From positions 992,001 through 1,056,000 of the forward strand of contig NZ_JACETV010000001.1 of the NCBI RefSeq assembly GCF_013912375.1: DNA of 64,000 bases, written 5' to 3'. Source of the DNA: Emticicia sp. BO119. GTDB taxonomy: Bacteria; Bacteroidota; Bacteroidia; Cytophagales; Spirosomataceae. Every line of letters begins with the position of its first letter. Position 1 is the stretch's first letter. Made by a program: the position numbers and the translations under genes. The notes beneath the pieces are model-generated. The model was not told where the DNA came from, did not search any database, and saw only the letters and a program-made list of their open reading frames with translations. Below, piece by piece: positions 37,191 through 55,772 of this stretch.

Positions 37191-37766
37191 GTGGAGTACG
37201 CAGGTTTAGGAGATGACATATTAGTCAAACTGATGAGTTTGGGAGATAAAGAGGCTTTTGGAGAGATTTACAGTCGATATTGGCGTAAATTATTTCAGAA
37301 AGCCCAACGAAAAATCTATGCAAAAGAGGTTGTTGAAGAAATTGTTCAAGACCTCTTTGTGACTCTTTGGGAAAAGCGTGCTTCGCAAAAAATCCAGACT
37401 TTGGAGCCTTATCTTTTTACAGCACTCAAATTCCAGATCATTACTCATATTAAGAAACAGGTATTGAAGGAAAAATTCGTTGCAATTACTACCGCCGAAA
37501 GTGAAGAAGAAGAAAATAGCCTTGAAGAAAAAATTGCTTATGATGATTTAACCCGGTCAATAGAACAGGCAATTGAGCAATTACCTGAAAAAACTCAACA
37601 CATTTTTCGTCTCAACCGATTAGAAGGTAAAAGTACCAAAGAAATTGTAGAGATTCTTAATATTCCCGAGCGCACGGTAGAATATCATATTTCTCAATCT
37701 CTCAGATTTATGCGCGAGCACCTGAAGGAGTTTCTTACCTGGGGTATGCTGCTATTTATTCGTTAG
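37191..37766 (+). CDS. ECF sigma factor, FecI-like (locus 1)
   Basis: 191 residues from GTG 37191; the next ATG lies inside region 2 and would lose conserved residues. Region 2 reads GDKEAFGEIYSRYWRKL and EIVQDLFVTLWEKR; region 4 reads LPEKTQHIFRLNRLEGKSTKEI and IPERTVEYHISQSLRFMREHL. It should direct RNA polymerase to the susC promoter of locus 1 once released by FecR. A gap of 320 bp separates it from fecR, longer than usual. Confidence 0.9.
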   Translation: MEYAGLGDDILVKLMSLGDKEAFGEIYSRYWRKLFQKAQRKIYAKEVVEEIVQDLFVTLWEKRASQKIQTLEPYLFTALKFQIITHIKKQVLKEKFVAITTAESEEEENSLEEKIAYDDLTRSIEQAIEQLPEKTQHIFRLNRLEGKSTKEIVEILNIPERTVEYHISQSLRFMREHLKEFLTWGMLLFIR

Positions 37767-38086: not shown

Positions 38087-39121
38087 ATGAAAAGCCGTAA
38101 AGCCTTTGGGAGACTTCTCCAGAAATACTTAGAGGGAAAATGTAGTGAGTCTGAAAGGCAATTGGTTGAGCAGTGGTATGAACTAATTGATGAAGAGCCA
38201 AGACAAGATTACTCTGACAGAGAATGGGAAGAGATAAAGTATAAATTATGGCGGAGAATTGAGGACAAGTCTTTTGAGCCAGCAGATATTTATACCGAAT
38301 CGTCACAGATGTTTAGTTTCTGGCGTTCTTATCGTGTTGGGATTGCTGCTTCTGTAACTATACTATTAAGTTTAGGTATGTGGTGGTATCTTAATGAAGA
38401 TGAAAAAAAATCAACTATTTTATCCACACAACAAGAAAAAAACGAATTAAAATTCATAGATAATACCTCTTCCAAGCCTATCAGAATAGGCCTTGAGGAT
38501 GGGAGCACCGTAACACTAAGTCCACACAGCCAACTTCAGTATCCCAATCACTTTGCTGCGAACAAAAGAGAAGTCCAACTCACAGGTGAGGCCCTGTTTG
38601 AGGTAAGTAAAAACCCGGAAAGACCATTTTATGTCCTAACTGATAAACTTGTTACCAAAGTTTTAGGTACCAGTTTTTATGTTCGTACGGTCGAAGCTAC
38701 AAAAAAAGTAGAAGTAGAAGTACTGACAGGTAAAGTGTCAGTGTACGAAAAAGAAAAAGTAAATAATGAAAACCCTGGTGTTGTATTGACTCCGAATCAT
38801 AAGGTTACTTTTTTTATAGCTGAAAAGCATTTTATCACGGGTCTGGTGCAAAAGCCATTACCTCAGATTCAGACAATAGAAAATAAACCTGAAACTTTTG
38901 AATTTGATGATGCACCCATCGGAGAGGTGTTGAATAAGTTAGAAAGGGTATATGGAATTGATATTGAGCTTGAAAATGAAAAATTAAGTACATGCCCACT
39001 TACGGCTGATATTACTCGACAACCTTTATATACCAAGTTAGATATAATTTGTGCAACAATTAATGGACGATATGAAGTGAAAGGAACGACAATTCTGATA
39101 AGTGGAAAAGGGTGTGAGTAA
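38087..39121 (+). CDS. FecR-type anti-sigma factor (locus 1)
   Basis: 344 residues: a cytoplasmic N-terminal part (LLQKYLEGKCSESERQLVEQW), one membrane helix near 85-105 (IAASVTILLSLGMWWYL), then a periplasmic FecR domain (ITLxDGSTVTLSPHSQLQYP-like text, LTGEALFEVSKNPERPFYV, VTKVLGTSFYVR) and a C-terminal DUF4974-like/STN-like domain (EFDDAPIGEVLNKLERVYGIDI). It holds sigma 1 inactive until the SusC STN domain touches its periplasmic part. Confidence 0.93.
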   Translation: MKSRKAFGRLLQKYLEGKCSESERQLVEQWYELIDEEPRQDYSDREWEEIKYKLWRRIEDKSFEPADIYTESSQMFSFWRSYRVGIAASVTILLSLGMWWYLNEDEKKSTILSTQQEKNELKFIDNTSSKPIRIGLEDGSTVTLSPHSQLQYPNHFAANKREVQLTGEALFEVSKNPERPFYVLTDKLVTKVLGTSFYVRTVEATKKVEVEVLTGKVSVYEKEKVNNENPGVVLTPNHKVTFFIAEKHFITGLVQKPLPQIQTIENKPETFEFDDAPIGEVLNKLERVYGIDIELENEKLSTCPLTADITRQPLYTKLDIICATINGRYEVKGTTILISGKGCE

Positions 39122-39187
39122 GGAGATAATTAATTACTGAATAAAGCATCTATTCAACCTTAATAAACTAACCATCTATTTAGCTCC

Positions 39188-39232
39188 GGGAGTATGTTTA
39201 AACGTTATATCAAGACAAGCAAACATGCTCCC
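39188..39232 (+). terminator. hairpin between fecR1 and susC1
   Basis: A 12-bp stem with one G-U pair (39188-39199 with 39221-39232) and a 21-nt loop, followed by TTATTAAC. Likely a terminator or processing site between the regulator and transporter genes. Confidence 0.45.
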
Positions 39233-39345
39233 TTATTAACTAAGCCATCTATTTAACCTTAGCAATATAAGTAAAAAGCTGAGGTCTATTTAACGCAAAC
39301 CCAATTGTATAAGTATGATTAAAAAATAAGTTCAATCTATGTAAA

Positions 39346-39457
39346 ATAAAAAAAGCTGACAATGGTACCAGCATTGTCAGCCCAATATGCCCTGAGATTA
39401 TTTTCGCTGCTCGTGAAAACAAGGGCTTCTTTTGTCAAATTCTTACCTCTAACAAAA
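39346..39457 (-). ncRNA. predicted cis-antisense RNA to the susC1 leader (DonS-like)
   Basis: On the minus strand, TTG (39491-39489), an 18-nt spacer and TACATTTG (39470-39463) form a near-perfect promoter overlapping the susC1 start. Transcription would begin near 39457 and stop at an intrinsic terminator: a perfect 10-bp stem (39381-39372 with 39364-39355, 7-nt loop) followed by seven U residues. A second hairpin (39389-39426, outer stem GCCCT/AGGGC, inner stem at 39401-39419) lies inside. The product, about 112 nt, is antisense to the untranslated leader of susC1. Position between anti-sigma and susC matches what is known for DonS-type RNAs in Bacteroides PULs. Existence is inference from sequence signals. 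Confidence 0.6.
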
Positions 39458-39462
39458 TTGTT

Positions 39463-39491
39463 CAAATGTATGAAAAAAAGATTACAAACAA
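39463..39491 (-). promoter_or_regulatory. promoter for the antisense RNA at susC1
   Basis: Minus strand TTG-N18-TACATTTG, an exact match to the Bacteroidota consensus. The -7 element ends at the first base of the susC1 start codon (39470). Confidence 0.6.
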
Positions 39492-42400
39492 GTAAAATCT
39501 TGCTACTTGCTATGAAAATTTCTGCTGTTCAGCTTGTATTGGCAATGATTTTCGCTACTGTTTCATATGCTTATGATTCAAAAGCTCAGGAGTTTTTGAA
39601 TAAGCCTGTTTCAGTAAATGCAGAAAACCAGAGCCTTCGCGCAGTGTTGAGTATGATTGAAGAGCAGACCGATGTGAAGTTTGTTTATAGCTCAAAAGCT
39701 ATTCATGCCGACCGTAAAGTGAGCTATACCGCAGCTGAACGAAAACTCTCTGATGTATTGGAATCGCTATTGAAGCCTATGAAGGTAAATTACAGGGTCA
39801 TTGGCGGACAGATTATTCTTAATTGGGAAGACAGACAGACCCTTTTGAACGGAATTGAGGCACCTTCAATGATTGATAAAGAAAATCTTATGCTGACAAT
39901 TGACCAACCGGTTAAAGGAAAGGTGACCGATAAGGATGGAGGGATGGGTTTACCTGGTGTCAGTGTTACGATTAAGGGGACAACTCGCGGAGTAACAACA
40001 GATGCTGAAGGCAACTATTCAATAGCAGTACCTAACGACAAATCGGTACTGGTATATAGTTTCCTGGGTTATGAGAAACAGGAAATCATTGTAGGGGCCC
40101 AAACAACAATTAATGTAACACTTGGCTCTGACATGAAAGCCTTAGAAGAGGTTGTGGTAGTTGGGTATGGTACTCAGAAAAAAGCAAATATGACCGGGGC
40201 TGTGTCAAGTATTGATGCGGCTGCAATAGAAAATCGTCCTGCCAGTAACTTAGCTACTGCTATGCAGGGAATGAGCCCAGGATTGATTATTACCCGCACA
40301 AGCGGACAGCCCGGAAGTGAAGATATAGGTATCCAGATTCGTGGAGCAACTACTGCCAATGGTTCAGTGAGCCCATTGGTTGTATTAGATGGGGTAGCGG
40401 TGCCAAGCAATACTCTACAGACAATGAACCCTAACGACGTTGAGAGTATCAGTGTTCTGAAAGATGCTGCAGCAGCAGCTATCTATGGTGCTCAAGCAGC
40501 AGGTGGGGTTATTCTTGTTACAACCAAGAAGGGAAAAGCCGGAAAAGTTACTTTTGATTATCTGGCGCAACAAGGCACAGACTGGTCAATTAATGTGCCT
40601 GAAAGAATGTCTTTACTGGAAGAAGCTGAATTTGCTAATCTGGCTCGTGCTAATTCCGGAAGTGGACCTGAGTATTCGGCAGATGACATTCAACGTATCA
40701 AAGATGGTATTCCTTATGTAGTCAATCCCGCTGATACAAGTACCTATCTTTTCTATAATCAGGTACCATTAGCAGACCAGATATTAAAAAAATACTCATC
40801 CATGCGTACGCACAATCTGACTGTAAGAGGCGGAACTGAAAAACTTAATTTCTTGCTTTCGGGTGGGTACTATGGTAAAAACGGAATATTTAAAGTTGGG
40901 CCTGATAGCTATAATCGTTATAATCTTCGTTTGAATCTTGGAGCTCAGTTAACTAAGATTTTCTCTCTTGATTCTCGACTTTCTTACACTAACGACAAGC
41001 AGGAGGCTTCGTCCGCAGGATTGAACGGACAAGGGTTAATTTATCAGATATACCGTTTGCGTACACGTACACCATTCTTTACACCAGAAGGGCGCTATAA
41101 TGGTGCCGGGTCAGCAGCTACTGCTTATGCCTCATTGGAGTCGGGTGGATATAATGAATACAAACGTAATTATTTTGATGGAGTATTTACTTTAAAAGCC
41201 TCTGAGATTATTAAAGGACTAAACCTACGAGCAGTTTTAGGTACACAATATCGCCGAGGCGACAGAGAAGTTTTTTATCGTACTGTGCCACTTTGGGGTA
41301 AATCAAGAGTTCTTAGCTATCTGAATCAGGTTAATTCTTTTCAGTTAACAAATGAGTTAACTACCAATACAAACTTACAGTTTCTGGCTAATTATGATAG
41401 AAAGTTTGGTAAGCATACACTTGGTTTATTTGCAGGGTATCAATGGGAAGACTTTCGCTTTTCTTCGTTCTTTACTTCTGCTTCAAACTTAGTAAGTAAC
41501 GATTTGCCAACTCTAAACTTAGGGGATGACAAAACCAAGAGCAATAGCCAGAGTATCTATGCCTATGCTTACCAATCAGTATTCGGTAGAGTAAATTACA
41601 GCTTTGCCGATAAATATTTGATTGAGGGTACGTTGCGTTCTGATGAAAGTTCAAGACTGGCACCAGGCTACCGTGTAAAGGTATTTCCTTCTGCATCAGC
41701 GGGCTGGAATATCCACCGTGAAGAATGGTTTTCAAATTCCTTAAAATTCATATCTGAATTAAAATTAAGAGCGTCGTGGGGTCGTTTAGGGGGTGCTTTG
41801 GGGAATACGTTGGGTTACTATGACTACCTGAACCAATTAAGCCGAAATAATAATTTAGTATTAGGTGATTCTCGTACTTCTTATATTTACCAAAGCTCAA
41901 TTCCTTCAGCACAACTATCGTGGGAGACCATTGAGACTTCAAATATTGGTGCTGATCTCGGTTTCTTCCAGAATAAACTACAGGTCACTGCCGATTACTA
42001 CGTGAAATATAACCGTAATATGCTTACTCCACAGCAATTACCAGCTGTGATCGGAATAGGAACACCGCGTAAAAACAATGGCGAGCTGAAATCGTGGGGA
42101 TGGGAGTTAGAAGCGCGTTACAGAGGAGCAATTGGTAGTAATTTCTCGTATAATGTTGCAGCGAACCTGTCTGACAACCAGAACAAATTAATCAATTTCT
42201 CAGGCCGCAGAGTAATTGCTGCCGGTACTAACGGATTGATTGAGGGTTATCCACTCAATACTATATGGGGGTATGAAACGGCGGGTTATTTCACAAGTGC
42301 TGATGAAGTTAAAGCCTGGGCTTTCCAGGATAACCGCACAGGTGCAGGAGATATAAAGTATATTGACAAAAATGGCGATGGAAGACTGACTATCGGTAAT

Positions 42401-42931
42401 GGTAATATTGACAATCATGGCGATCTTGTATTGTTGGGTACCACCCAACCCCGTTACTTGTTTGGAGTTACGCTTGGTTTCCAGTGGAAAAATATTGACT
42501 TCTCGGCGTTTGTGCAAGGGGTAGGGAAACGTAATTACCGTCCGACTACGGAAAATATAGCTCCATTACTTGTTACCTGGAAACAAGCATTGGGTGTGCA
42601 TAAAGATTACTGGACTCCTGAAAATCCGAATGCGCTGTATCCAAGACCTTATGTAGGGGCTACGCATAACTATGTATCATCTGACAAATGGGTTTTAAAT
42701 GCGAGTTATGCACGCTTGAAAAACATTCAGGTAGGTTATACATTACCAGTAACCTGGACCTCTAAAATTAATATTTCAAGGGCGAGATTTTTCTTCTCTG
42801 GTCAAGACCTTCTTACTATCTCATCATTGGGTAAATTCAAAGGCTTATTTGACCCGGAAAACCGCGATAATGTAGATAACGACTATCCATTCTTTGCTAC
42901 GGCATCAATTGGTTTAAACCTTTCATTTTAA
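39470..42931 (+). CDS. SusC-family TonB-dependent outer-membrane transporter with STN domain (locus 1)
   Basis: 1153 residues from ATG 39470. An in-frame ATG at 39362 lies inside the leader hairpin and would put 36 unrelated residues before the signal peptide. Order: signal peptide ending near residue 38 (YAYDSKAQ), STN domain (about 45-120, VKFVYSSKAI), carboxypeptidase-regulatory-like domain (KGKVTDKDGGMGLPGVSV), plug (VVVGYGTQKKANMTGAV, VESISVLKDAAAAAIYG) and a 22-strand-type barrel ending in a C-terminal phenylalanine (ASIGLNLSF). The STN domain is the part that signals to FecR. Imports an oligosaccharide or similar; the heparinase-like genes downstream suggest a uronic-acid-containing glycan. 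Confidence 0.96.
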   Translation: MKKRLQTSKILLLAMKISAVQLVLAMIFATVSYAYDSKAQEFLNKPVSVNAENQSLRAVLSMIEEQTDVKFVYSSKAIHADRKVSYTAAERKLSDVLESLLKPMKVNYRVIGGQIILNWEDRQTLLNGIEAPSMIDKENLMLTIDQPVKGKVTDKDGGMGLPGVSVTIKGTTRGVTTDAEGNYSIAVPNDKSVLVYSFLGYEKQEIIVGAQTTINVTLGSDMKALEEVVVVGYGTQKKANMTGAVSSIDAAAIENRPASNLATAMQGMSPGLIITRTSGQPGSEDIGIQIRGATTANGSVSPLVVLDGVAVPSNTLQTMNPNDVESISVLKDAAAAAIYGAQAAGGVILVTTKKGKAGKVTFDYLAQQGTDWSINVPERMSLLEEAEFANLARANSGSGPEYSADDIQRIKDGIPYVVNPADTSTYLFYNQVPLADQILKKYSSMRTHNLTVRGGTEKLNFLLSGGYYGKNGIFKVGPDSYNRYNLRLNLGAQLTKIFSLDSRLSYTNDKQEASSAGLNGQGLIYQIYRLRTRTPFFTPEGRYNGAGSAATAYASLESGGYNEYKRNYFDGVFTLKASEIIKGLNLRAVLGTQYRRGDREVFYRTVPLWGKSRVLSYLNQVNSFQLTNELTTNTNLQFLANYDRKFGKHTLGLFAGYQWEDFRFSSFFTSASNLVSNDLPTLNLGDDKTKSNSQSIYAYAYQSVFGRVNYSFADKYLIEGTLRSDESSRLAPGYRVKVFPSASAGWNIHREEWFSNSLKFISELKLRASWGRLGGALGNTLGYYDYLNQLSRNNNLVLGDSRTSYIYQSSIPSAQLSWETIETSNIGADLGFFQNKLQVTADYYVKYNRNMLTPQQLPAVIGIGTPRKNNGELKSWGWELEARYRGAIGSNFSYNVAANLSDNQNKLINFSGRRVIAAGTNGLIEGYPLNTIWGYETAGYFTSADEVKAWAFQDNRTGAGDIKYIDKNGDGRLTIGNGNIDNHGDLVLLGTTQPRYLFGVTLGFQWKNIDFSAFVQGVGKRNYRPTTENIAPLLVTWKQALGVHKDYWTPENPNALYPRPYVGATHNYVSSDKWVLNASYARLKNIQVGYTLPVTWTSKINISRARFFFSGQDLLTISSLGKFKGLFDPENRDNVDNDYPFFATASIGLNLSF

Positions 42932-42971: not shown

Positions 42972-44588
42972 ATGAAATCATTCATAAAATATATAACTTT
43001 AGGTGTAGCTGTTTTGGTAGGAGTAACCGCTTGTGATGTAAACAGACTTCCTGAAACAAACATTAGTGATGCCACTTTCTGGCGTTCGGAAGCTGACCTT
43101 AAATCGGCAGCAAACTATCTATATACTTTTTTGCCTGGCTTTAATACTGAAGATGTATGGTCTGACGATGCAGTAGGTCTTGCCTCTAATAATATCAGTG
43201 ATGGCTCTCGTTTAGCACCTGCTACTGATGGCAACTATAGTAGTCCATACGGGTTAATCAGAGCGGCCAATAATATTATCGAAAAAGCTCCCCGAGCAGA
43301 ATCAGCCGGACAGGCAGTTATTGATCGCTATATTGGCGAAGCCCGATTCTTCAGAGCATGGGCATATTTTTCGTTGGTTCAGAAATATGGGGATGTGCCA
43401 TTAATTCTAAAAACTCTGGAAGACAACTCTCCTGAATTAACAGCTACGGCTACCTCAAGAGCTGAAATTTATACTCAGATTTATCAGGATTTAGACTTTG
43501 CTGCAAGCAAATTGCCAACCCCAACTGCTTTGGGTTCAGCAGATTATGGCCGGATCTCAAATACTGCTGCTTTAGCACTCAAAGCAAGAGTGGGGCTTTT
43601 TGAGGGCACTCGTTCAAAATTTCATAAATATGGAGACCCGAACGCACATCTTACTGTGGCTGTGGCAGCCGCCAAAGCCGTAATGGATAGTAAACAACAT
43701 GATTTGTTTGCCAGTTACTTCAATTTATTTCAATATGAAGGTGAAGGACGGCAGAATCGTGAAAATATTATAGTAAGACAATACGGTGTTTCGGCAACAG
43801 AACGTGTAAGTACACATTCTTATTTCAGAGGAAGTTTAGAGAATGGTAATCTGAGTCCAACCAAGAGCTTGGCTGATGCCTATCTAATGAAAGACGGCCT
43901 ACCAATTACAAAATCACCATTGTATAAAACTCCTGAGGCTTCTTTGGATGTATTTGCTAATCGCGACGAACGGATGTCGGCTACTTTTATGAAAAGAGGA
44001 GACGCTTATATGGGTACGAAACCTGTATTTGATATCGCTCCTTTAGTATTTAATAAAACCGGATTTACTTTTCGTAAATACTCTAATATTGATGACTGGA
44101 CAACCCAAAATTCTTTAATGGACCGTGTTGTTTTACGTTATGCAGAAGTTTTATTGGTATATGCAGAAGCTAAATTTGAATTAGAAAATCAAATCAGTGA
44201 TGCAGATTTAGAAATTTCTATCAACTTATTGCGCAAAAGAGCCAACATTGCTAAACTATCTAATGCATTTGTTTCGGAAAATGGTTTAGATATGCGCGAT
44301 GAAATCCGACGAGAAAGACGTGTGGAGTTAGCACAAGAAAGTTTTCGTTATTGGGATCTTATCCGTTGGAAAATTGCTGAAGTAGAACTGCCAAAACCGG
44401 TTTTGGGTAATTATTTCTTCAAAACTGAGTTCGGGACTTCAGTTACTGTAAATCTGACACCTGAAAACTTCATTCTGGTGCAAGCAGCCAGCTTCCGTAA
44501 ATTCGACCCCGAGAAAGATTATTTATGGCCTTTACCAATCAATGAAATTTCTTTGAACTCCAATCTAAAGCAAAATCCTAAGTGGTAA
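42972..44588 (+). CDS. SusD/RagB-family surface lipoprotein (locus 1)
   Basis: 538 residues with lipobox (GVTAC, Cys21). The RagB/SusD fold is recognised by DATFWRSEADLKSAANYLY, GEARFFRAWAYFSLVQKYGDVPLI, RADILVYAEAKFELE-like text, INLLRKRANI, RRERRVELAQESFRYWDLIRW and LWPLPINEISLN. It caps the SusC barrel and binds the substrate outside the cell. It starts 40 bp after susC1 and is followed by a strong hairpin, so the downstream enzyme genes have their own promoter or depend on read-through. Confidence 0.95.
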   Translation: MKSFIKYITLGVAVLVGVTACDVNRLPETNISDATFWRSEADLKSAANYLYTFLPGFNTEDVWSDDAVGLASNNISDGSRLAPATDGNYSSPYGLIRAANNIIEKAPRAESAGQAVIDRYIGEARFFRAWAYFSLVQKYGDVPLILKTLEDNSPELTATATSRAEIYTQIYQDLDFAASKLPTPTALGSADYGRISNTAALALKARVGLFEGTRSKFHKYGDPNAHLTVAVAAAKAVMDSKQHDLFASYFNLFQYEGEGRQNRENIIVRQYGVSATERVSTHSYFRGSLENGNLSPTKSLADAYLMKDGLPITKSPLYKTPEASLDVFANRDERMSATFMKRGDAYMGTKPVFDIAPLVFNKTGFTFRKYSNIDDWTTQNSLMDRVVLRYAEVLLVYAEAKFELENQISDADLEISINLLRKRANIAKLSNAFVSENGLDMRDEIRRERRVELAQESFRYWDLIRWKIAEVELPKPVLGNYFFKTEFGTSVTVNLTPENFILVQAASFRKFDPEKDYLWPLPINEISLNSNLKQNPKW

Positions 44589-44807: not shown

Positions 44808-46670
44808 ATGAAGAAAAAGTATTTCATTTTTCTGGTTCTAATATTCATTGCATTTAATACCTCCTCACAGTTACTTCACCTAAAAGAGGATGTAAAAGTA
44901 TCTAATCATCCTCGCATTCTGCTTTTGCAAGGTGAGGAAACAACTATTCTGAAAAATATTGCTTCTGACAGTAATTGGAAGAAAATTCATCTGGTAATTC
45001 TTGCTGAAAGTGATCGTCTTCTCAATCAACCAGTATTAGAAAGAATACAGATAGGTCGCAGGCTCCTGGCTACTTCAAGAGAGTGTCTTCGCAGAATATT
45101 TTATCTTTCCTATTCCTACCGTATTACTAATGATAAAAAATATCTGACCAGAGCAGAGGAAGAATTAGTAAAAGTTTCACAGTTTAGCGATTGGAATCCA
45201 AGCCATTTTTTAGATGTTGCAGAGATGACTATGGGTGTAGCCATCGGTTATGACTGGTTATTTAAAGATTTACAACAATCATCAAAAGAAATTATTAAAG
45301 AGGCTATCCTAAAAAAAGGTATCGAACCTTCACTCAATAGTAAATATAATTACTGGTTGAAAAACTCGAATAACTGGAATCAGGTGTGTAACGCCGGAAT
45401 GAGTTACGGTGCATTAGCAATCTACGAAGAAAACCCGGCCTTAGCCAGACAAATTATTGATCGAGCTGTTGAGTCTATCAAAATTCCAATGGGTGATTAC
45501 AAGCCTGAAGGGGCGTATCCTGAAGGATATAGTTATTGGGGTTATGGTACAAGTTTTAATATAATGTTTATCAGTGCTATTCAGAAGGTATTTAAAACTG
45601 ATTTTGCTTTGTCAGAAACAGAAGGTTTCCTGAAAACAGCCGGATACTTTCAGCACATGGTTGGAACCTCTGGAAAAAACTTCAACTATTCGGATGCCGG
45701 AAATGGTACAGATTTAAGCCCGGCTATGTTCTGGTTTGCGGATAGAAATAAGGATAATAGCCTATTATATACTGAAAATAACTATGTGAATGACAGTAAA
45801 TCAATTGGTAGAGATCGTTTGCTTCCGGCTGCGATGATATGGGGTAAGGATTTATCGCTTAATAATGCCAAAGCTCCTGAGCAATTCATTTGGGTAGGGC
45901 AGGGGAGAAACCCTGTAGCTTTGATGCGTACTTCATGGACAGACCCTGATGCAATTTACGTGGGTTTCAAGACAGGGTCTCCTTCTGTGAGCCATGGTCA
46001 TATGGATGTTGGTTCATTTGTAATGGATGCAAATGGCGAACGTTGGTCGATGGATTTCGGAATGCAGGAGTATGAGTCTCTGGAGTCGAAAGGTGTTAAT
46101 TTATGGGATATGAAACAAAATTCTCAACGCTGGCAAATATTTCGATACAATAATCTGGCTCATAGTACTCTAACTTTTGATAATGAATTTCAAAAAGTAG
46201 AGGGTAAAGCAGGTATTCAAAAGTTTACTGCCAACCCCAAATTTATAAGTGCTATCAGCGATATTAGCGGCGTATATAAAACTAAAGAAGTAATAAGAGG
46301 AATAGCGATTGTAGATCAAAAGTTTGTAGCTGTGAAAGACGAAATTGTAGCAGACCAAAACTCAACTACAGTCCGATGGTCAATGTTAACTCCGGCAGAA
46401 GTACACATTGATACCCATGCGTCAGCTACACTCATACACAAAGGCAAGAAGTTGCACCTAAAAGTAGTGGAACCTGCAAATGCCACTCTGAAAACCTGGT
46501 CAACACAAGGTAAAAATGATTTTGATGCTCCAAACCCGGGTACAACACTGATAGGTTTTGAAGCAGCACTTTCTGCAAGCAGCAAAACCAACCTGACTAT
46601 TTTGTTAATACCCGAAGGCACAAAAACAAACATTAAACAAACTATTCCGGCTTTGAAAGACTGGAAATAA
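44808..46670 (+). CDS. heparinase II/III-family polysaccharide lyase-like protein 1
   Basis: 620 residues, signal peptide ending near residue 21. The N-terminal alpha/alpha toroid (about 40-370; GVAIGYDWLFKDL, NNWNQVCNAGMSYGALAI, PEGAYPEGYSYWGYG) precedes the heparinase II/III C-terminal beta-sheet domain (SVSHGHMDVGSFVMDANGER, NLAHSTLTF). Asn and His/Tyr in NNWNQ, the GYSYWGYG stretch and SHGHMD match positions used by PL12/PL15/PL17/PL21 enzymes to cleave uronic-acid-containing glycans by beta-elimination. The exact substrate cannot be read. It is the first of two lyase-like genes in locus 1. Confidence 0.85.
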   Translation: MKKKYFIFLVLIFIAFNTSSQLLHLKEDVKVSNHPRILLLQGEETTILKNIASDSNWKKIHLVILAESDRLLNQPVLERIQIGRRLLATSRECLRRIFYLSYSYRITNDKKYLTRAEEELVKVSQFSDWNPSHFLDVAEMTMGVAIGYDWLFKDLQQSSKEIIKEAILKKGIEPSLNSKYNYWLKNSNNWNQVCNAGMSYGALAIYEENPALARQIIDRAVESIKIPMGDYKPEGAYPEGYSYWGYGTSFNIMFISAIQKVFKTDFALSETEGFLKTAGYFQHMVGTSGKNFNYSDAGNGTDLSPAMFWFADRNKDNSLLYTENNYVNDSKSIGRDRLLPAAMIWGKDLSLNNAKAPEQFIWVGQGRNPVALMRTSWTDPDAIYVGFKTGSPSVSHGHMDVGSFVMDANGERWSMDFGMQEYESLESKGVNLWDMKQNSQRWQIFRYNNLAHSTLTFDNEFQKVEGKAGIQKFTANPKFISAISDISGVYKTKEVIRGIAIVDQKFVAVKDEIVADQNSTTVRWSMLTPAEVHIDTHASATLIHKGKKLHLKVVEPANATLKTWSTQGKNDFDAPNPGTTLIGFEAALSASSKTNLTILLIPEGTKTNIKQTIPALKDWK

Positions 46671-46678
46671 TATAATTG

Positions 46679-46736
46679 AGTGATTTTGTCTGAACTTTGA
46701 TTTAAATGATTTAATTAAAGTTCAGACAAAATCACT
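46679..46736 (+). terminator. long inverted repeat between the two heparinase-like genes
   Basis: Perfect 20-bp arms (46679-46698 and 46717-46736) with an 18-nt AT-rich loop fill most of the 88-bp gap. No U-run follows; it may stop transcription, slow it, or protect the upstream mRNA end. Confidence 0.55.
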
Positions 46737-46758
46737 TAATCACTAAATTCTTAAACTT

Positions 46759-48693
46759 ATGAAAACCTTCTTTACCTCTATATTCTTTAGCCTTGTGCTA
46801 ATTGCTCAGGCTCAGGTGAAACAACGAAATATATTAGGCAATACATACTCTATAGATGCTTATAAGTCGAGCATCGTACCTAAAAGCCAATGGAAGCCGT
46901 ATCCGAAAACACCGGAAGAATGGAAAGCAGCTTTGCCTGATTCGTTAATTCAATCAATTATAAAAGCAGGCGAAGCAACGGCTAAAAAAGAAATGCCTCA
47001 GATGTCGGCAACAATTCTGATGAATTATGTTCGCTCCGGTGACCGTGAAGAACATTCAAAAATATCTTTTGGCCGACGTATTAATCTGATGGATTTAGTG
47101 ATGGCTGAATCGGTTGAAGGGAAAGGTCGTTTTACAGAGGACATTATGAACTATGTATGGGCCATATGCGAAGAAACCTACTGGGGAGTTCCGGCGCATT
47201 TAGGGGTGCAAAAGGCAAAAAATGGTTTACCAGATGCAGAAGACCCTACGGTTGATTTATTCGCTGCCGAAACAGCATCAGTTTTAGGCTTGACTGACTA
47301 TTTTGTTGGTGAAAAATTGGATAAGATTTCACCACTTATCCGTAAAAGAATTTATTCAGAAACAAAACGCAAAATTTTTGAGCCTATCAAACAGGTTGAG
47401 AGATATGGTTGGTTAAGTAAAAAAAATCCAGTTAATAACTGGAACCCCTGGATTGTTTCTAACTTATTGATTGCTGATTTATTTATAGAATCTGACGAAA
47501 ACAAAAGAGCTATTAATGCTTATACTTATTCTACTTTGATGGATGCTTACCTGAATAGTTTAGGTGATGATGGGGGGTGTGATGAGGGTCCAAGTTATTG
47601 GTTTGCCGCTGGCGCTTGTGTTTTTGATGCACTTGAAACACTATCAAGTGCATCAAATGGAAAAATAAATATCTATGACCAGCCAATTATACAAAAACTG
47701 GCGGCATATATTTATAAAACACACATTGCTGATGATTATTTTGTGAATTTTGCAGATGCAGACCCTAAACTACGCCCGGATGGTTTGATGTTGTATCGTT
47801 TCGGGCAAGCACTGAAAGATAACACACTTATGCAATTTGGTTTGTGGGCATTTCAAAGATTCCCTTCTACGGCTACTTCAAATGGTAGTTTTCATCGGAT
47901 GAGAAGAATCGCTAATATTCTTACAGTGAATGAAATACCAGAAGTTACTACTACTTACAAACCTAATGCTGATGCCTGGTTTAAGGATATTCAGGTACTC
48001 ACTACCCGCGCATCAAATGGTTTTTATTTAGCTACTCATGCCGGACACAATGCCGAAAGTCATAACCATAATGATGTGGGGGATTTTCTGTTATATGCTA
48101 ATGGTGAGCCAGTAATTATTGATGCCGGGCGTGGTAATTATACTGCCCGTACCTTTTCTTCGAAACGATATGAATTATGGTTTACACAATCGCAATATCA
48201 TAACCTCCCGATTATTAATGGCAAAGGGCAGTTAGCTGGCCGCCACTATGAAGGAGCCAATGTGGAATGTACAGTAAATGAAAAAGAGGCTGCCTTGAAT
48301 ATGGATATTGCTCCGTCTTACGATAAGGAAGCAGGGGTTCAGAAATGGAACCGAACGGTAAAATTGAACAAGATAAAAAATCAGGTAGAGATTACAGATG
48401 ATTATATCTTAAATCAGAAACCGATCTCACTGGAGCAGGTTTTTATGACAGTTTGTGAAATAAACACCGATATACCTGGAAAGATTATCTTGACAACGCC
48501 CAAAAGACAAAATGTGATTTTGTTATATGATACTAAAAGCTGGACAGTTTCTACCGACTTCCCTTCAACTGAAGGTATGGAGTATAAAAGTTTTAAAACA
48601 AAATGGGATAATCACCCTGTAAGACGTATGATACTCACCAATAAAAATCTATTGCAAAAAAGCAAAAGTGTTTTTACTATTATGATGGAATAG
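46759..48693 (+). CDS. heparinase II/III-family polysaccharide lyase-like protein 2
   Basis: 644 residues, signal peptide ending near residue 19 (IAQAQ). Toroid domain (about 60-390; RINLMDLVMAESVEGKGRF, NNWNPWIVSNLLIAD, DDGGCDEGPSYWFAAG) and C-terminal heparinase II/III beta-domain (NAESHNHNDVGDFLLYANGEP, VIIDAGRGNYTARTF). Conserved Asn, Tyr and His residues are present (NNWNPW, SYWF, HNHND), so it is probably active. It differs in both size and toroid motifs from the neighbouring lyase-like protein, so the pair likely make different cuts, for example endo and exo, on one glycan (inference). Confidence 0.85.
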   Translation: MKTFFTSIFFSLVLIAQAQVKQRNILGNTYSIDAYKSSIVPKSQWKPYPKTPEEWKAALPDSLIQSIIKAGEATAKKEMPQMSATILMNYVRSGDREEHSKISFGRRINLMDLVMAESVEGKGRFTEDIMNYVWAICEETYWGVPAHLGVQKAKNGLPDAEDPTVDLFAAETASVLGLTDYFVGEKLDKISPLIRKRIYSETKRKIFEPIKQVERYGWLSKKNPVNNWNPWIVSNLLIADLFIESDENKRAINAYTYSTLMDAYLNSLGDDGGCDEGPSYWFAAGACVFDALETLSSASNGKINIYDQPIIQKLAAYIYKTHIADDYFVNFADADPKLRPDGLMLYRFGQALKDNTLMQFGLWAFQRFPSTATSNGSFHRMRRIANILTVNEIPEVTTTYKPNADAWFKDIQVLTTRASNGFYLATHAGHNAESHNHNDVGDFLLYANGEPVIIDAGRGNYTARTFSSKRYELWFTQSQYHNLPIINGKGQLAGRHYEGANVECTVNEKEAALNMDIAPSYDKEAGVQKWNRTVKLNKIKNQVEITDDYILNQKPISLEQVFMTVCEINTDIPGKIILTTPKRQNVILLYDTKSWTVSTDFPSTEGMEYKSFKTKWDNHPVRRMILTNKNLLQKSKSVFTIMME

Positions 48694-50393: not shown

Positions 50394-50424
50394 TTGACTA
50401 TATATATTAGAATTCATACGTTTG
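50394..50424 (+). promoter_or_regulatory. promoter of sigma factor 2
   Basis: TTG 50394-50396, 20-nt spacer, TACGTTTG 50417-50424: full consensus match. It overlaps an in-frame TTG at 50422, which shows that codon is promoter and not start. Confidence 0.72.
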
Positions 50425-50442
50425 AAAACTGACCTATCTATA

Positions 50443-51000
50443 ATGAAGTACCAAAAACTAAGTGATGAAGAATTGGTTGATTTCTTAAGAAGCGACAATG
50501 AAACAGCTTTTGAAGAGATATATAATCGGTACTGGTACAAATTGTTTGGCGTGGCCTATCATGAAATTGGAACCAAAGAAGAGGCCGAAGAATTAGTACA
50601 TGATTTATTTGAAAGTCTTTGGAACCGACGACAGTTAAGTGTTATTAAACACCTGAGCTCTTACTTAGTAGTTTCTATAAAACATTTGTCAACTAATTAC
50701 ATAAAGTCGCAGATTACACAAAGAAAATACCAGGAGTATCTGATTTTAAGCCAGATACAACAATCATACTCAACAGACGAAACCGTTCATTTTACTGACT
50801 TGTCAAAAGCAGTAGAGGAAGCAATGAAAAAGCTCCCTGAAAAAAGTTGTGAAATTTTTAAATTAAGTCGTTTTGAAAATCAGTCGGTCAAAGATATTGC
50901 TAATAAAATGAATCTTTCTGAAAAAGCAGTAGAATACCACCTGACCAAAACCCTCAAGGTTTTAAAGGAGCAACTAAGGGCTTATCATACAAACAATTAA
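50443..51000 (+). CDS. ECF sigma factor, FecI-like (locus 2)
   Basis: 185 residues from ATG 50443 (MKYQKLSDEELVDFLRS). Region 2: NETAFEEIYNRYWYKLF and EELVHDLFESLWNRR; region 4: LPEKSCEIFKLSRFENQSVKDI and LSEKAVEYHLTKTLKVLKEQL. Same class as the locus 1 sigma but clearly diverged. It should drive the susC/susD transcript of locus 2. The fecR gene follows 46 bp later, so the two are co-transcribed. Confidence 0.93.
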   Translation: MKYQKLSDEELVDFLRSDNETAFEEIYNRYWYKLFGVAYHEIGTKEEAEELVHDLFESLWNRRQLSVIKHLSSYLVVSIKHLSTNYIKSQITQRKYQEYLILSQIQQSYSTDETVHFTDLSKAVEEAMKKLPEKSCEIFKLSRFENQSVKDIANKMNLSEKAVEYHLTKTLKVLKEQLRAYHTNN

Positions 51001-51046
51001 TTTTTGTTTAAAATTAAAGATACCGTTATCTACGGGCCTTAGGTCT

Positions 51047-52069
51047 ATGAACCAGCATGAATTCGACAAACTTTTAGAAAAATATTTAGCAGGCGAATGT
51101 AGTACTGAAGAAGAAAAACTGATTTGGGAATGGCAGGAAAATATGCTCAAAAACAGTCAGTTACTTCTTAATTCAGATGAAAAGGAGGCCATTAAAAAGC
51201 GTCTTTGGAGCCGGATTTACGATAATACAATAGGTGCTGGAGAGGAGGAGACAAGCATATCCAAGAAGAGAATTTTTATGATTCTTAAATGGGGGATTGC
51301 AGCTTTACTTCTGATTGGGTTAACCAATATTTTTCTGATAATGAAAGATAAAAAAGCAGAGGTAACAGCAGAAACTCTCCCGACTCAACACTCAAGCGAT
51401 ATTGAAGTTAAAAATACGTCGAGCAGTGATAGTGAAATAAAACTGGAAGATGGAACTGTTGTAAAGCTAAAAAAGAATAGTAGTATCAGTTATCCTAAGC
51501 ACTTCGGCAAAGAAACCCGGAATGTGTATCTGAAAGGAGAAGCTTTTTTTAAAGTCAAAAGAAATCCAAATGCCCCCTTTATTGTTCACACAGGAGATTT
51601 GGTAACAGAGGTTTTAGGTACGAGTTTTAATGTGAAGTCTTATGATAATTCAAAGGCCATAGAAGTTTCTGTAACATCGGGTAGGGTGTCAGTATATGAA
51701 ATGTCAGAGAAATTGTCTGATAAGAAAAATGGTGTTATTCTGACACCAAATCAGAAGGTAGTTTTTGATAAAAGCTCAAAGAAAATAACACCTGGAATTG
51801 TAGAAAATCCTATTGTTTTGACACCAGGAGTAAGCAAAATTGACTTCGTATTTGAAGAAGTGCCACTTCAACAGGTATTTCAGCGATTAAAAGATGTGTA
51901 TGGTATTGAAATAATAATAGAAAACCAGGATTTAAATCAATGTGTCCTGACAGCTGATTTAAATGACCTCCCGCTATTTACACAACTTGAATTAGTCTGT
52001 CGTACTGTGAATGCAAGATTTGAAGAGAGAGGAACCAGCTTTTTTGTAAGCGGAGAAGGATGTAAATAA
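51047..52069 (+). CDS. FecR-type anti-sigma factor (locus 2)
   Basis: 340 residues: N-terminal sigma-binding part (LLEKYLAGECSTEEEKLIWEW), one membrane helix near 83-101 (WGIAALLLIGLTNIFLIM), periplasmic FecR domain (IKLEDGTVVKLKKNSSISYP, LKGEAFFKVKRNPNAPFIV, VTEVLGTSFNVKS) and a C-terminal STN-like/DUF4974-like domain (DFVFEEVPLQQVFQRLKDVYG). Same build as the locus 1 protein. It keeps sigma 2 inactive until contacted by the STN domain of the locus 2 SusC. Confidence 0.93.
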   Translation: MNQHEFDKLLEKYLAGECSTEEEKLIWEWQENMLKNSQLLLNSDEKEAIKKRLWSRIYDNTIGAGEEETSISKKRIFMILKWGIAALLLIGLTNIFLIMKDKKAEVTAETLPTQHSSDIEVKNTSSSDSEIKLEDGTVVKLKKNSSISYPKHFGKETRNVYLKGEAFFKVKRNPNAPFIVHTGDLVTEVLGTSFNVKSYDNSKAIEVSVTSGRVSVYEMSEKLSDKKNGVILTPNQKVVFDKSSKKITPGIVENPIVLTPGVSKIDFVFEEVPLQQVFQRLKDVYGIEIIIENQDLNQCVLTADLNDLPLFTQLELVCRTVNARFEERGTSFFVSGEGCK

Positions 52070-52152
52070 TAAAGAGACCATTTATTCAACCTTAATAAAT
52101 TATAAATAATTACAAAACTTTTAAAAACAAAACCTAAATGAAAACATGAAAC

Positions 52153-52256
52153 AAAAAAAGCCGACAATGTATTAACATCATCGGCCTTGCGAGCTCTCAA
52201 CCGAACGGCAATTCGGAGCCTGAGAGATTAGTTTTTACCTATCACAAGTATAAAAA
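52153..52256 (-). ncRNA. predicted cis-antisense RNA to the susC2 leader (DonS-like)
   Basis: Minus-strand terminator: stem 52185-52176 with 52169-52160 (10 positions, two mismatches), 6-nt loop, then seven U residues. A second hairpin lies inside (outer CTCTCA/TGAGAG at 52194-52226, inner CCGAA/TTCGG). The likely -7 element is TACATTTA at 52269-52262, at the same place relative to the start codon as in locus 1, but with one mismatch and no TTG, so the promoter is weaker. Both predicted RNAs share the order: AGGTAA-type 5' part, TAATCTC, internal hairpin, terminator with GACAATG in the stem. About 104 nt. Confidence 0.5.
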
Positions 52257-52268
52257 CAACCTAAATGT

Positions 52269-55200
52269 ATGAAAAAAGACGTACGTAGAAAAAATTTTTT
52301 GCTCAAAGCAATGAAAATTACGTTTACTCAACTCTTGATGGTCGCCCTCTTTAGCGGACTTTCTTACGCTTACGATGTGAATGGACAAGAAGTTCTTAAG
52401 ACAAACGTTTCGTTAAAGATAGAATCACTTGAAGTTAAAAAAATTCTGAGCCAGATAGAAAAACAGGCTGATGTAAAGTTTGTGTATAGTTCAAATACTA
52501 TACGATTGAATCAAAAGGTATCAATTGTTATCAGCAATAATTTAGCTGAGGTACTTAACGATTTATTTACACCACTACAGATTTCTTATGAAGTTATAGG
52601 AGACAGAATTTTGCTGCGTAAAAAATCTCAATTGAAAAAAATGTCTCACATTGATGAATTAAGGATGCAAAATGGGGAGATTATTGAGCAAACAGTAAAA
52701 GGAAAAGTAACTGAAGCCGATAAGAGTGAAGGTTTGCCAGGTGTAAGTGTTTTGATAAAAGGTACAACAAGAGGAACAACTACCGATGCCGACGGTAACT
52801 ATACCCTGGTTGTGCCTGATAATCAGGCTGTTCTGGTTTTCAGTATTGTAGGTTTTGAGCCAACGGAAGTTATTGTGGGCAACCGTACAACTATTGATGT
52901 AGCCATGAAACCAGATGTAAAATCATTGGGTGAGGTCGTGGTAGTGGGTTATGGTGTTCAGAAAAAAGAAACTGTAACTGGTTCGGTTGTAAGTGTAAAG
53001 GGTAATGAATTAGTAAAATCGCCCGCAGTAAACTTAAGTAACTCTCTTGCAGGTCGTCTCCCTGGTGTTGTTGCCGTCAACAGAAGTGGAGAGCCTGGTT
53101 ATGATGGTTCAGCTATCCGCATTAGAGGAGCAAATACTTTAAATAATAGCGATGCCTTGATCGTAATTGATGGTATTCCTAACCGTGCCGGTGGTTTTGA
53201 CAGATTGAATCCTGCGGACATTGAAAGCATCTCGGTTTTGAAAGATGCCTCTGCGGCAATATATGGTTCTCGTGCTGCAAACGGTGTTATTCTGATTACT
53301 ACCAAAAGGGGTAAAACCGGTAAACCTGAATTGTCATATTCATTCAATCAGGGTTTTGCACAGCCAACAGTTGTGCCTAAATTAGCCAATGCGGCACAAT
53401 ATGTTCAGATGTTGAACGACCTTGATATTTATCAATTGCCAGTAGGTGAATGGGCTGCTGCTAATCAGGCGTACAAAACAAATGGTGTATATAACAGACC
53501 TAATGGTGAGGTAAGAAAAGCTCCTTTCTCACCGACGGATATTCAGAAATATGCAGATGGCTCAGACCCATGGTTATATCCGAATACTGACTGGTATGCA
53601 GCCACATTAAAAGACTGGTCGCCTCAGGTACGTCACAATGTACAATTGAATGGTGGTACTGAAAATGTAAAGTATCTGACGTCTTTAGGCTATCAGAAAC
53701 AAGATGCCTACTACAAGAAATCTGCTACAGCGTATGAACAATATGACATCAGAATTAACCTTGATGCCAAAATTAACAAATACGTTAATTTACAAGTAGG
53801 TTTGGTTGGCCGTGAAGAGTTCAGACGCTTCCCTACCAAGCCAGCGAGTGCTATTTTCCGTATGCAAATGCGTGGAAAACCTCATCAACCAGCTTACTGG
53901 CCTAATGGGTTACCTGGCCCGGATATTGAAAATGGTGAAAATCCTGTTGTTATTACAACTAATCAGACTGGTTATGAACACGATAAACAGGACTATTTCC
54001 AGACCAATGGACAATTAGATATAAAAATACCAGGAATTGAGGGACTTAAATTTACAGGTACAGCTGCGATTGATAAGCGTATCCGTTCGCAAAGACGCTG
54101 GGAAACACCATGGACCTTATATGAAAAAGGTTCAGGAACTAACCCTGATGGTACCCCTGTGTTGGTTGCCAGTAAGCGTGGCCCTGCCGAACCACGTCTG
54201 ACATTAGGTAACGAAACACAATTAAATATTTTATTGGGTGGTATTGCTACTTATGAGCGTACATTTGGTGCACATGGTATTACTGTTTTAGCTGGTACAA
54301 ACCAGGAAAGAATACAGGGAACAAACTTCAATGCCTTCCGCCGCTACTTTATTTCAACAGCTATTGACCAGTTATTTGCCGGTGGTGATTTAGAGAAAAA
54401 CAATGGTGGGGGTGCTTATAACAGTGCCCGTATCAACTATTTTGGTCGTGCTGCTTATAATTACAAAGAAAAATATCTGGCTGAATTCTTATGGCGCTAC
54501 GATGGTTCTGACATATTCCCTCCTGAAACACGTTATGGTTTCTTTCCGGGCTTTATGTTAGGCTGGGTATTGTCTGAAGAGAACTTTATCAGGAAAGGGC
54601 TACCAATGGTCAGCTACCTGAAACTACGCGGTTCATGGGGTCAGATGGGTAACGATCAGGTGTATCTGCCTAACACTTCAACACCTGCTACTTATCAGTA
54701 CTTATCAACGTACGGATTCCGCAGTTATATCATTGGTAATGTAGAAACGAAAACTTTGTATGAAACACGTATCCCTAATAACAATATTACATGGGAGGTG
54801 GCCAATAACTCAAATGTTGGTTTAGAAGGTTCATTATTCAATGGTAAATTATCATTCGAATTAGATTTCTTTGCTAACAAACGTACTAATATCCTATGGT
54901 TCAGAAATGCTTCAGTACCTCAATCAACAGGTTTGACATTACCTGCTGAAAACATTGGAGAAGTCTCTAATAAAGGATGGGAGTTTAACGTGGGTTATCG
55001 TAGCCAGGCTGGCGATTTCAAATATAGTGTGAGTGTGAATGGAGGTTATGCCAAAAACAAAGTACTATTCTGGGACGAAGCTCCTGGAGCACCTGAATGG
55101 CAACGTACTACAGGTAAGCCAATGTACACGTTCCAGGCCTATATCTATGATGGTGTATTCAAAGATCAGGCAGAAATTGATGCTAATCCAATAGACTACA

Positions 55201-55772
55201 AAGCTATTGTAAATCAATTGCGTCCTGGTGATATGAAATACAAAGATTACAATGGTGATGGTAAAATTACACCTGATGATCAGGTTCGTACAGATAATAC
55301 CCAGTTACCTTTGTTTCAGGGAGGAGCTAATATTACGGCACAGTACAAAAACTTTGATCTGACTATCTTATTCCAGGGCGCAGCAGGTGCAAAGCAATAT
55401 GTTAGCGCAGGCGAGTCTGGTAATATTGGTAATTTCTTGTTAGATATTTACGAAAACCGCTGGACAATTGATAATCCAAGTAGCGTTCACCCTCGCATTG
55501 CCAACCGTAGCGACCAGTATTTCTCTGGTGGTAATACTTACTGGCTAAGAAGTTCAGACTATATCCGTTTGAAAAACTTCGAGTTAGGCTATACTATTCC
55601 AAATGCCTGGGGTTCAAAAGTTGGTTTGAATAATTTTAGAGTTTATGTAAATGGACTAAATTTATTGACATGGGATAAATTGAAGGTGTATGACCCTGAA
55701 ACTACGAATTCAACAGGGCAATATTACCCTCAATCGAGAATTATTAATGCAGGTCTAACAGCAACATTCTAA
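52269..55772 (+). CDS. SusC-family TonB-dependent outer-membrane transporter with STN domain (locus 2)
   Basis: 1167 residues. Signal peptide ends near residue 36 (YAYDVNGQE). STN domain about 45-120 (ADVKFVYSSNTIRL), carboxypeptidase-regulatory-like domain (KGKVTEADKSEGLPGVSV), plug (VVVGYGVQKKETVTGSVV, IESISVLKDASAAIYGSRAANG) and barrel ending in phenylalanine (INAGLTATF). The first 125 residues closely resemble the locus 1 SusC, while the barrel regions are far less alike, as expected for different substrates. Clustered with haloperoxidase- and oxidoreductase-type genes rather than glycoside hydrolases. Confidence 0.96.
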   Translation: MKKDVRRKNFLLKAMKITFTQLLMVALFSGLSYAYDVNGQEVLKTNVSLKIESLEVKKILSQIEKQADVKFVYSSNTIRLNQKVSIVISNNLAEVLNDLFTPLQISYEVIGDRILLRKKSQLKKMSHIDELRMQNGEIIEQTVKGKVTEADKSEGLPGVSVLIKGTTRGTTTDADGNYTLVVPDNQAVLVFSIVGFEPTEVIVGNRTTIDVAMKPDVKSLGEVVVVGYGVQKKETVTGSVVSVKGNELVKSPAVNLSNSLAGRLPGVVAVNRSGEPGYDGSAIRIRGANTLNNSDALIVIDGIPNRAGGFDRLNPADIESISVLKDASAAIYGSRAANGVILITTKRGKTGKPELSYSFNQGFAQPTVVPKLANAAQYVQMLNDLDIYQLPVGEWAAANQAYKTNGVYNRPNGEVRKAPFSPTDIQKYADGSDPWLYPNTDWYAATLKDWSPQVRHNVQLNGGTENVKYLTSLGYQKQDAYYKKSATAYEQYDIRINLDAKINKYVNLQVGLVGREEFRRFPTKPASAIFRMQMRGKPHQPAYWPNGLPGPDIENGENPVVITTNQTGYEHDKQDYFQTNGQLDIKIPGIEGLKFTGTAAIDKRIRSQRRWETPWTLYEKGSGTNPDGTPVLVASKRGPAEPRLTLGNETQLNILLGGIATYERTFGAHGITVLAGTNQERIQGTNFNAFRRYFISTAIDQLFAGGDLEKNNGGGAYNSARINYFGRAAYNYKEKYLAEFLWRYDGSDIFPPETRYGFFPGFMLGWVLSEENFIRKGLPMVSYLKLRGSWGQMGNDQVYLPNTSTPATYQYLSTYGFRSYIIGNVETKTLYETRIPNNNITWEVANNSNVGLEGSLFNGKLSFELDFFANKRTNILWFRNASVPQSTGLTLPAENIGEVSNKGWEFNVGYRSQAGDFKYSVSVNGGYAKNKVLFWDEAPGAPEWQRTTGKPMYTFQAYIYDGVFKDQAEIDANPIDYKAIVNQLRPGDMKYKDYNGDGKITPDDQVRTDNTQLPLFQGGANITAQYKNFDLTILFQGAAGAKQYVSAGESGNIGNFLLDIYENRWTIDNPSSVHPRIANRSDQYFSGGNTYWLRSSDYIRLKNFELGYTIPNAWGSKVGLNNFRVYVNGLNLLTWDKLKVYDPETTNSTGQYYPQSRIINAGLTATF

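Follow-up and report, generated by a model that had tools for sequence, protein, structure and literature searches.

Predicted DonS-like antisense RNA genes at susC start codons of ECF/FecR-type PULs in Emticicia sp. BO119 and related bacteria

The cis-antisense RNAs associated with PULs of Bacteroides, DonS among them, were reportedly described in 2016 by Cao et al. According to the original prediction, DonS-type RNAs are carried at susC by many PULs of this genus that are run by an ECF sigma factor and its anti-sigma factor. RNAs of this type possess their own promoter and an intrinsic terminator. DonS-family RNAs are 78–128 nt in length, and a housekeeping-type promoter has been assigned to 52% of the cis-antisense RNAs of B. 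thetaiotaomicron (PMC7366714). The same source lists TAnnTTTG at −7 and TTTG near −33 as the consensus for the B. fragilis primary sigma factor, the −7 half having been confirmed in Flavobacterium (PMC7366714). In B. fragilis DonS represses its PUL, by a mechanism stated to be unknown (PMC11697453). The annotation of B. thetaiotaomicron contains 32 PUL antisense RNAs, which show a mixed correlation with their PULs, some pairs being positive (PMC10994844). An RRM protein acts on small RNAs in the latter species, whose small RNAs include FopS and GibS; FopS targets the translation start of susC mRNAs with involvement of an RRM protein and is said to be deposited in Rfam (PMC11697453). Antisense RNAs have been reported from F. 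psychrophilum, in the available text without a link to susC (PMC9723704). Among the matches listed from the open-licence literature, no report of PUL antisense RNAs outside Bacteroides was found. The kind of RNA is already known, and the 2016 work together with a study of Segatella copri may narrow the novelty of the present case. Here, we describe a locus in Emticicia that, with a probability of roughly 0.73, encodes a cis-antisense RNA that resembles DonS and represses an ECF/anti-sigma PUL, in a host other than Bacteroides; its transcription is predicted from sequence and its repressor role is taken from the analogy.

The window, i.e. the whole stretch of 64,000 nt of DNA that was analysed, derives from Emticicia sp. 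BO119, which NCBI taxonomy places in the Cytophagia, Cytophagales, Leadbetterellaceae. By profile matches its first locus is an ECF/FecR/SusC PUL on the plus strand, comprising an ECF sigma factor gene (37191–37766), fecR1 for an anti-sigma factor with FecR and FecR_C domains (38087–39121), susC1 with carboxypeptidase-regulatory and plug domains and an STN match below the cut-off (39470–42931), and susD1 (42972–44588). The original prediction had used a PUL run by an ECF/anti-sigma pair as its criterion for a DonS-type setting, and locus 1 is of this type. In a search reaching close relatives only, FecR1 relatives in named genomes were found in Emticicia sp. C21 (83%) and E. agri (81%), with a third in Pedobacter sp. 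PLR (30%) far behind. The mechanical longest-ORF start of susC1, at 39362, falls inside the terminator hairpin described below; the likely true start is the ATG at 39470 (MKKRLQT...), and an annotation using 39362 would bury the putative antisense gene beneath coding sequence. The N-terminal part of SusC1 (39623–39817) gives a weak FecR_C match over the STN region (E = 6e-5, below the cut-off). Two heparinase II/III-like proteins are encoded downstream of susCD1 (44808–48693), neighbours that presumably may indicate a uronic-acid polysaccharide as substrate.

The susC1 leader was read on both strands. Direct reading confirmed the minus-strand TTG-N18-TACATTTG that had been noticed over the susC1 start codon: the −7 box TACATTTG, of the form TAnnTTTG, occupies 39463–39470 (minus strand, 39470→39463) at a conserved position overlapping the codon, and the TTG of the −33 region lies at 39489–39491 (minus strand, 39491→39489), 18 nt from the box and at offset +19 from the A of the ATG. 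The perfect 10-bp hairpin followed by seven U, also part of the original prediction, is present as the minus-strand terminator hairpin H3 (39353–39383), in which 39355–39364 pairs with 39372–39381 around a 7 nt loop (39365–39371) and seven T run from 39354 to 39348. H3 has the most pairs among nine terminator-like sites at 37–45 kb, where shuffles expect 4.8 sites. The second hairpin that had been claimed within the block corresponds to the middle hairpin H2 (39389–39426), listed on the minus strand from folding with its strand undecided; folding adds a 5′ hairpin of the antisense RNA, H1 (39430–39457, minus strand), with a UUUUGU/ACAAAA core. Predicted antisense RNA 1 would thus span 39348–39459 on the minus strand, its 3′ end being taken from the T-run and its 5′ end from the −7 box. 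The start near 39459, and with it the length of ∼112 nt, follows from applying the usual distance from −7 box to transcription start. On this placement the RNA would begin ∼11 nt upstream of the susC1 start codon, only the box overlapping the codon, and its full length is complementary to the part of the susC1 leader between roughly −11 and −122. The minus strand of the element folds at −37.4 kcal/mol (z = −4.0). Like the PUL-associated antisense RNAs of Bacteroides, the predicted RNA is short, is encoded antisense to the 5′ region of a PUL susC gene and has a putative housekeeping-type promoter. Upstream of the element, the leader at ∼39148–39268 contains near-repeats of the type CTATTTAACCTTA, which were also seen by eye near 52080–52100.

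The same leader design (T-run, hairpin, second hairpin and box over the start codon) recurs in the second ECF–FecR–SusC locus of the window (50422–55772), where profile matches identify, on the plus strand, an ECF sigma factor (50422–51000), fecR2 (51047–52069) and susC2 (52269–55772). Sequence and the covariance model R1 predict here a second antisense RNA of ∼106 nt with three hairpins (52153–52258, minus strand). Its −7 box, TACATTTA (52262–52269, minus strand), departs from the consensus in the last base and overlaps the susC2 start codon, and its terminator hairpin (52160–52185, minus strand) has ten pairs, two of which are G–U and appear as A·C mismatches on the plus strand. Predicted RNAs 1 and 2 both fold as three hairpins and do so better than their complements (−36.0 versus −28.3 and −36.7 versus −25.1 kcal/mol, respectively). 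Counting against the antisense reading, copy 2 has no −33 TTG, and two of the four copies in the genome have a box that departs from the consensus.

This genome was sampled through its 30 best SusC loci, all above the cut-off. FecR lies directly upstream in five of these, together with a long N-terminal extension of SusC, and four of the five leaders carry the antisense terminator, the remaining one (L010) being without the element. Before the 25 SusC genes without FecR, any terminator-like site occurs on the minus strand twice and on the plus strand once. These figures bear on the idea that antisense transcription is noise from inside susC against which the terminator shields fecR. Terminators pointing away from the gene would act so, by inference alone; such sites are, however, rare before the other susC genes (2/25) and before other genes (3/83), and in the present leaders they are accompanied by a fixed TAnnTTTG box, so that we consider a shield very improbable. 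In this genome, model R1 recovers its four training copies at E values between 5e-17 and 5e-11; a fifth site, an orphan, has an E value of 2e-4, and seven further matches are weaker (0.02–0.7). The orphan element (L174/L261, contig C1 of this genome, 1450115–1450285) and its counterparts L263 and L262 have no susC or fecR within 1.5 kb. Across the three genomes of the genus these orphan copies share 80–83% identity, with an identical terminator loop and inner stem; two of them have a perfect −7 box and the third deviates from it at a single base, and the copy in the present genome has lost the start codon. An orphan copy may be a stand-alone RNA, perhaps acting in trans, or a remnant.

Conservation of promoter and terminator at related loci had been set beforehand as a test of the original prediction, and both were found in FecR leaders of the family and of the class, the latter meaning Bacteroidia in the GTDB sense. 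The test was anchored on FecR_C matches, not on the element itself, and the loci were the best-scoring of longer lists. The family sample covered 31 genomes, 29 of them with FecR_C, and 90 loci (30 given, 60 picked), of which 88 had a next ORF and two were dropped; in the class sample FecR_C occurred in 44 of 119 genomes, and 49 loci were read (29 given, 20 picked), 48 with a next ORF and one dropped. With the caveat that all genes counted are related and the counts not independent, a hairpin plus T-run was present on the minus strand in 44/88 family leaders versus 4/88 on the plus strand, and in 18/48 versus 1/48 leaders from other families of the class. These 18 terminators come from ten genomes and six families besides that of the window (f2, f33, f36, f40, f53 and f56), the four from f56 belonging to one genome; among the 15 class-sample leaders shorter than 20 nt none had a terminator. 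Under the strict rule the element is missing from at least half of the FecR leaders, which weighs against the antisense reading, and some of the 42 terminator-negative leaders do have a hairpin that this rule missed (e.g. L039, L054 and L167).

Chance, or a translation-initiation motif combined with an unrelated hairpin, would be the simplest account of such signals. A-rich starts are usual in this phylum, and a scan for sigma-70-type promoters gave no excess (23 found versus 23.5 expected), although it does not cover the TAnnTTTG promoter type and was discarded as uninformative for this phylum. Both signals are, however, conserved at related loci, and the susC1-leader element, judged by its sequence, exceeds chance because it is repeated at the second locus of the window, is conserved in leaders elsewhere and folds with a z of −4.0; chance is scarcely credible.

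The covariance search that had been proposed for the element was carried out with R1, a model trained on 23 elements including the four of this genome. R1 matches element 1 at 39346–39492 of the window (minus strand). At E ≤ 0.001 it was found in 49 of 61 family genomes, with 299 matches summed over the 61, and at E ≤ 0.01 in all 11 genomes of the genus. The class sample yielded matches in 15 of 296 genomes, 12 of the 15 lying outside the family, a low figure that probably reflects training on one family and strict filters. All 29 family hits that were fetched lie beside susC and 28 of them have FecR, the remaining locus ending early; outside the family 13 of 15 fetched hits have susC and 12 have FecR, and one (L223) looks false. 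Rfam 15 gave no match in the window at gathering scores, and up to E = 1 the sole match was 6A RNA on the plus strand, with 18.3 bits where the gathering score is 41.2. Compared with FopS, whose RNAs share a conserved 5′ seed, act on distant genes and are intergenic in nine of 14 cases (PMC11697453), the present element is cis-encoded, fully complementary and without an Rfam match. The Emticicia genome encodes two RRM_1 proteins, and a profile search gave no match to Hfq. On the sense strand, ∼20–50 nt upstream of the antisense terminator, 14 of 67 fecR–susC leaders from several families (e.g. L034, L054, L125, L152 and L168) contain GCCTATG, often as a mini-ORF such as ATGCCTATGAAATAA, where shuffling expects 0.05; this may be a leader mini-ORF, a sense promoter or a remnant of fecR.

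The predicted antisense promoter is fused to the susC start codon. The start context AAAnnTATG occurs in 41/62 FecR leaders with a terminator and in 10/42 leaders of at least 60 nt without a detected one (Fisher P = 3e-5), compared with 1/25 non-FecR susC genes of the genome and 2/83 random co-directional genes; these starts are the mechanical first ATG of the ORF, with rules differing slightly among the three kinds of set. In the start region the conserved bases are AAA (−6 to −4) and T (−1), and the two nn positions vary more; starts for the position and box-offset counts were picked by A-richness, which leaves T at −1 and nn unaffected. A set of 49 elements was assembled from 51 by dropping four judged false and adding two copies from the present genome. 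It contains 33 exact TAnnTTTG on the minus strand where 10.7 are expected, and 28 of these lie at offset −7 or −8; on the sense strand there are two where 4.4 are expected. Among the 41 box-bearing elements the TTG lies at +20 or +21 in 16, and three have the +19 spacing of the window. Part of the conservation of the −7 box could serve translation, because the box overlaps the translation start. For ECF-driven promoters, TGTT at about −10 has been proposed (PMC12596196). A sense promoter of susC was not found in the leaders, and the overlap of the antisense RNA with susC mRNA is for this reason assumed. The sense motif GTTTTTGYC was considered as such a promoter and rejected, since the H1 stem explains it at least as well and visual inspection of the class-wide leaders did not bear it out. 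An H1 stem of at least six pairs is formed in 25/49 elements versus 15% of shuffles.

Predicted lengths of 112 and 106 nt fall within the range of DonS, and some of the 49 elements (84–139 nt) exceed it. Together with the ECF/FecR/SusC setting and the conserved signals, including a promoter and intrinsic terminator of its own, the two lengths lend support at the sequence level to the DonS-type reading. The antisense RNAs contain no sign of a hidden peptide: no coding signal was detected in the 49 elements, and their ORFs are no longer than in shuffles. Differences from DonS, which was compared by its description, are the host (Emticicia, Cytophagales, plus further families by layout), the −7 box fused to the start codon, the covarying terminator and the purely computational nature of the RNA.

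The terminator stem carries a strong record of compensatory change. In an alignment of 23 of the 30 listed elements, all 12 pairs of the H3 stem show changes on both sides and 99.3% of cells are paired, a level reached by none of 500 shuffles and falling to 22–63% in slid versions. The wobble pairs indicate the strand. On the T-run strand, the ratio of G–U to A·C is 82:20 in the hairpins of 71/136 leaders versus 216:194 in 193 control hairpins from 400 kb, the hairpins having been chosen by a score that treats G–U and A·C alike; plus-strand hairpins of the same kind occur in 9/136 leaders. Base composition explains only part of this bias, because shuffles of the same stretches give 1.4:1 (P = 3e-6). 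Another symmetric choice of hairpin, possible in the 72 of 90 leaders that were long enough, gives 87:16 in 51 leaders, and some of the 71 hairpins being weak, the 49 with a score of at least 24 give 48:10 versus 52:40 in 61 equally strong controls. An earlier count, in which hairpins were picked with G–U allowed on the minus strand, was biased and was replaced by these symmetric counts with a composition control. H2 was rejected as a strand-specific structure, with 79 G–U versus 67 A·C on the sense strand and no strand preference, and the strand bias of H1 may be due to base composition. The folding z is better on the antisense strand in 36/49 elements (mean −3.8 versus −2.8 on the sense strand), and in 31/49 when H3 is removed.

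These data also weigh the view that the hairpins belong to the sense mRNA, as leader structure, attenuator or translation control, and that the minus-strand signals are their reflections. The sense strand of leader 1 does fold (z = −3.7), the sense leaders as a whole beat shuffles (mean z = −2.8, a point against the antisense reading), and H1 on the mRNA side would, by the folding model, pair the A-rich initiation region. The wobble bias of H3 nevertheless favours the minus strand, the T-runs lie mostly on its side (44 versus 4 of 88 and 71 versus 9 of 136), copy 2 has two A·C mismatches in the sense but ten pairs on the minus strand, and the spacing with free nn positions fits TAnnTTTG. We regard a sense-mRNA origin as quite improbable.

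A sequence theme recurs in the apical loops of H3, in contrast to the variable stems. A core of TYGCA or TGCRA is found in 19/71 terminator loops versus 4/193 control hairpins and in 12/38 loops from model hits, and U-N-R occupies loop positions 2–4 in 24/71 versus 21/193, counts that treat related sequences as independent. The core occurs in both orientations, which loop–loop pairing between sense and antisense RNA could tolerate and a protein site would not; inversion of the hairpin could also be the cause. As regards loops specific to each paralogue, identical terminator loops were seen in 0/43 pairs within genomes versus 23/1085 between genomes, without statistical significance (permutation P = 0.28). 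CopA, Sok and RNA-OUT are kissing-loop antisense RNAs, and the predicted RNAs resemble this group in that their stem-loops have U-turn-like apical loops, each opposite a complementary loop of the target; they differ in that the contact is suggested here by loop conservation and in that there is no plasmid or toxin context.

The loops also bear on transcription interference, in which polymerase moving from the start codon towards fecR would collide with, or occlude, the susC promoter and the RNA would be a by-product. In favour of this view, the antisense promoter is oriented head-on to the sense transcript, and the terminator keeps antisense transcription within the leader; how DonS itself works is also stated to be unknown (PMC11697453). 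The product is, however, structured, and a conserved apical loop is needless for interference; the covarying H3 stem does not decide the matter, since any terminator needs a stem. On balance interference alone is unlikely.

Promoter and terminator signals, their co-conservation, covariation, the strand bias and the link to FecR-type susC genes are all shown by the sequences, and an antisense RNA gene is in this respect well supported; repression of the susC operon is inferred from the analogy with DonS. On the preferred DonS-like reading, a small antisense RNA gene would sit between fecR1 and susC1. A housekeeping-type (sigma-ABfr, TAnnTTTG) promoter, with its −7 box in the susC start codon and the preceding bases, would drive a noncoding RNA of ∼110 nt with three hairpins, whose transcription would stop at an intrinsic terminator short of fecR. 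This RNA would most likely be made while FecR holds the ECF sigma factor. It would pair with the susC leader, the first contact perhaps being loop-to-loop at the terminator hairpin, and pairing would hide or destroy the translation start and keep the susCD operon silent. Once the receptor–FecR–ECF pathway fires, sense transcripts would outnumber the antisense RNA, and sense RNA polymerase passing over the antisense promoter would switch it off; strong sense transcription should occlude this promoter because it sits within the susC transcription unit.

The original prediction also placed the RNA outside the class in which DonS was described. This stands by NCBI taxonomy, which puts Emticicia in the Cytophagia, the PUL antisense papers considered being on Bacteroides; the grouping used in the genome search is wider, and in it several families of the same class carry the layout. 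A broader and more tentative proposal, which we hold to be possible but rather doubtful, is that of an old class-wide RNA family in which the start codons of FecR-regulated susC genes are welded to the promoter of their own antisense repressor and form a two-way switch, with recognition loops drawn from a small set of sequences that can be read either way, as would be permitted by loop–loop pairing; in one or more copies susC is gone, and such a copy may act in trans. If the DonS-like reading is true, the device would be no speciality of the gut, but would accompany susC genes of the ECF/FecR type in several families of the class, and its age and spread may be greater than has been assumed. 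It would be findable by one covariance model, and its mechanism would be testable by comparison of the kept pairs and loops and in species from outside the gut. Changes to susC start codons may then also alter the antisense promoter.
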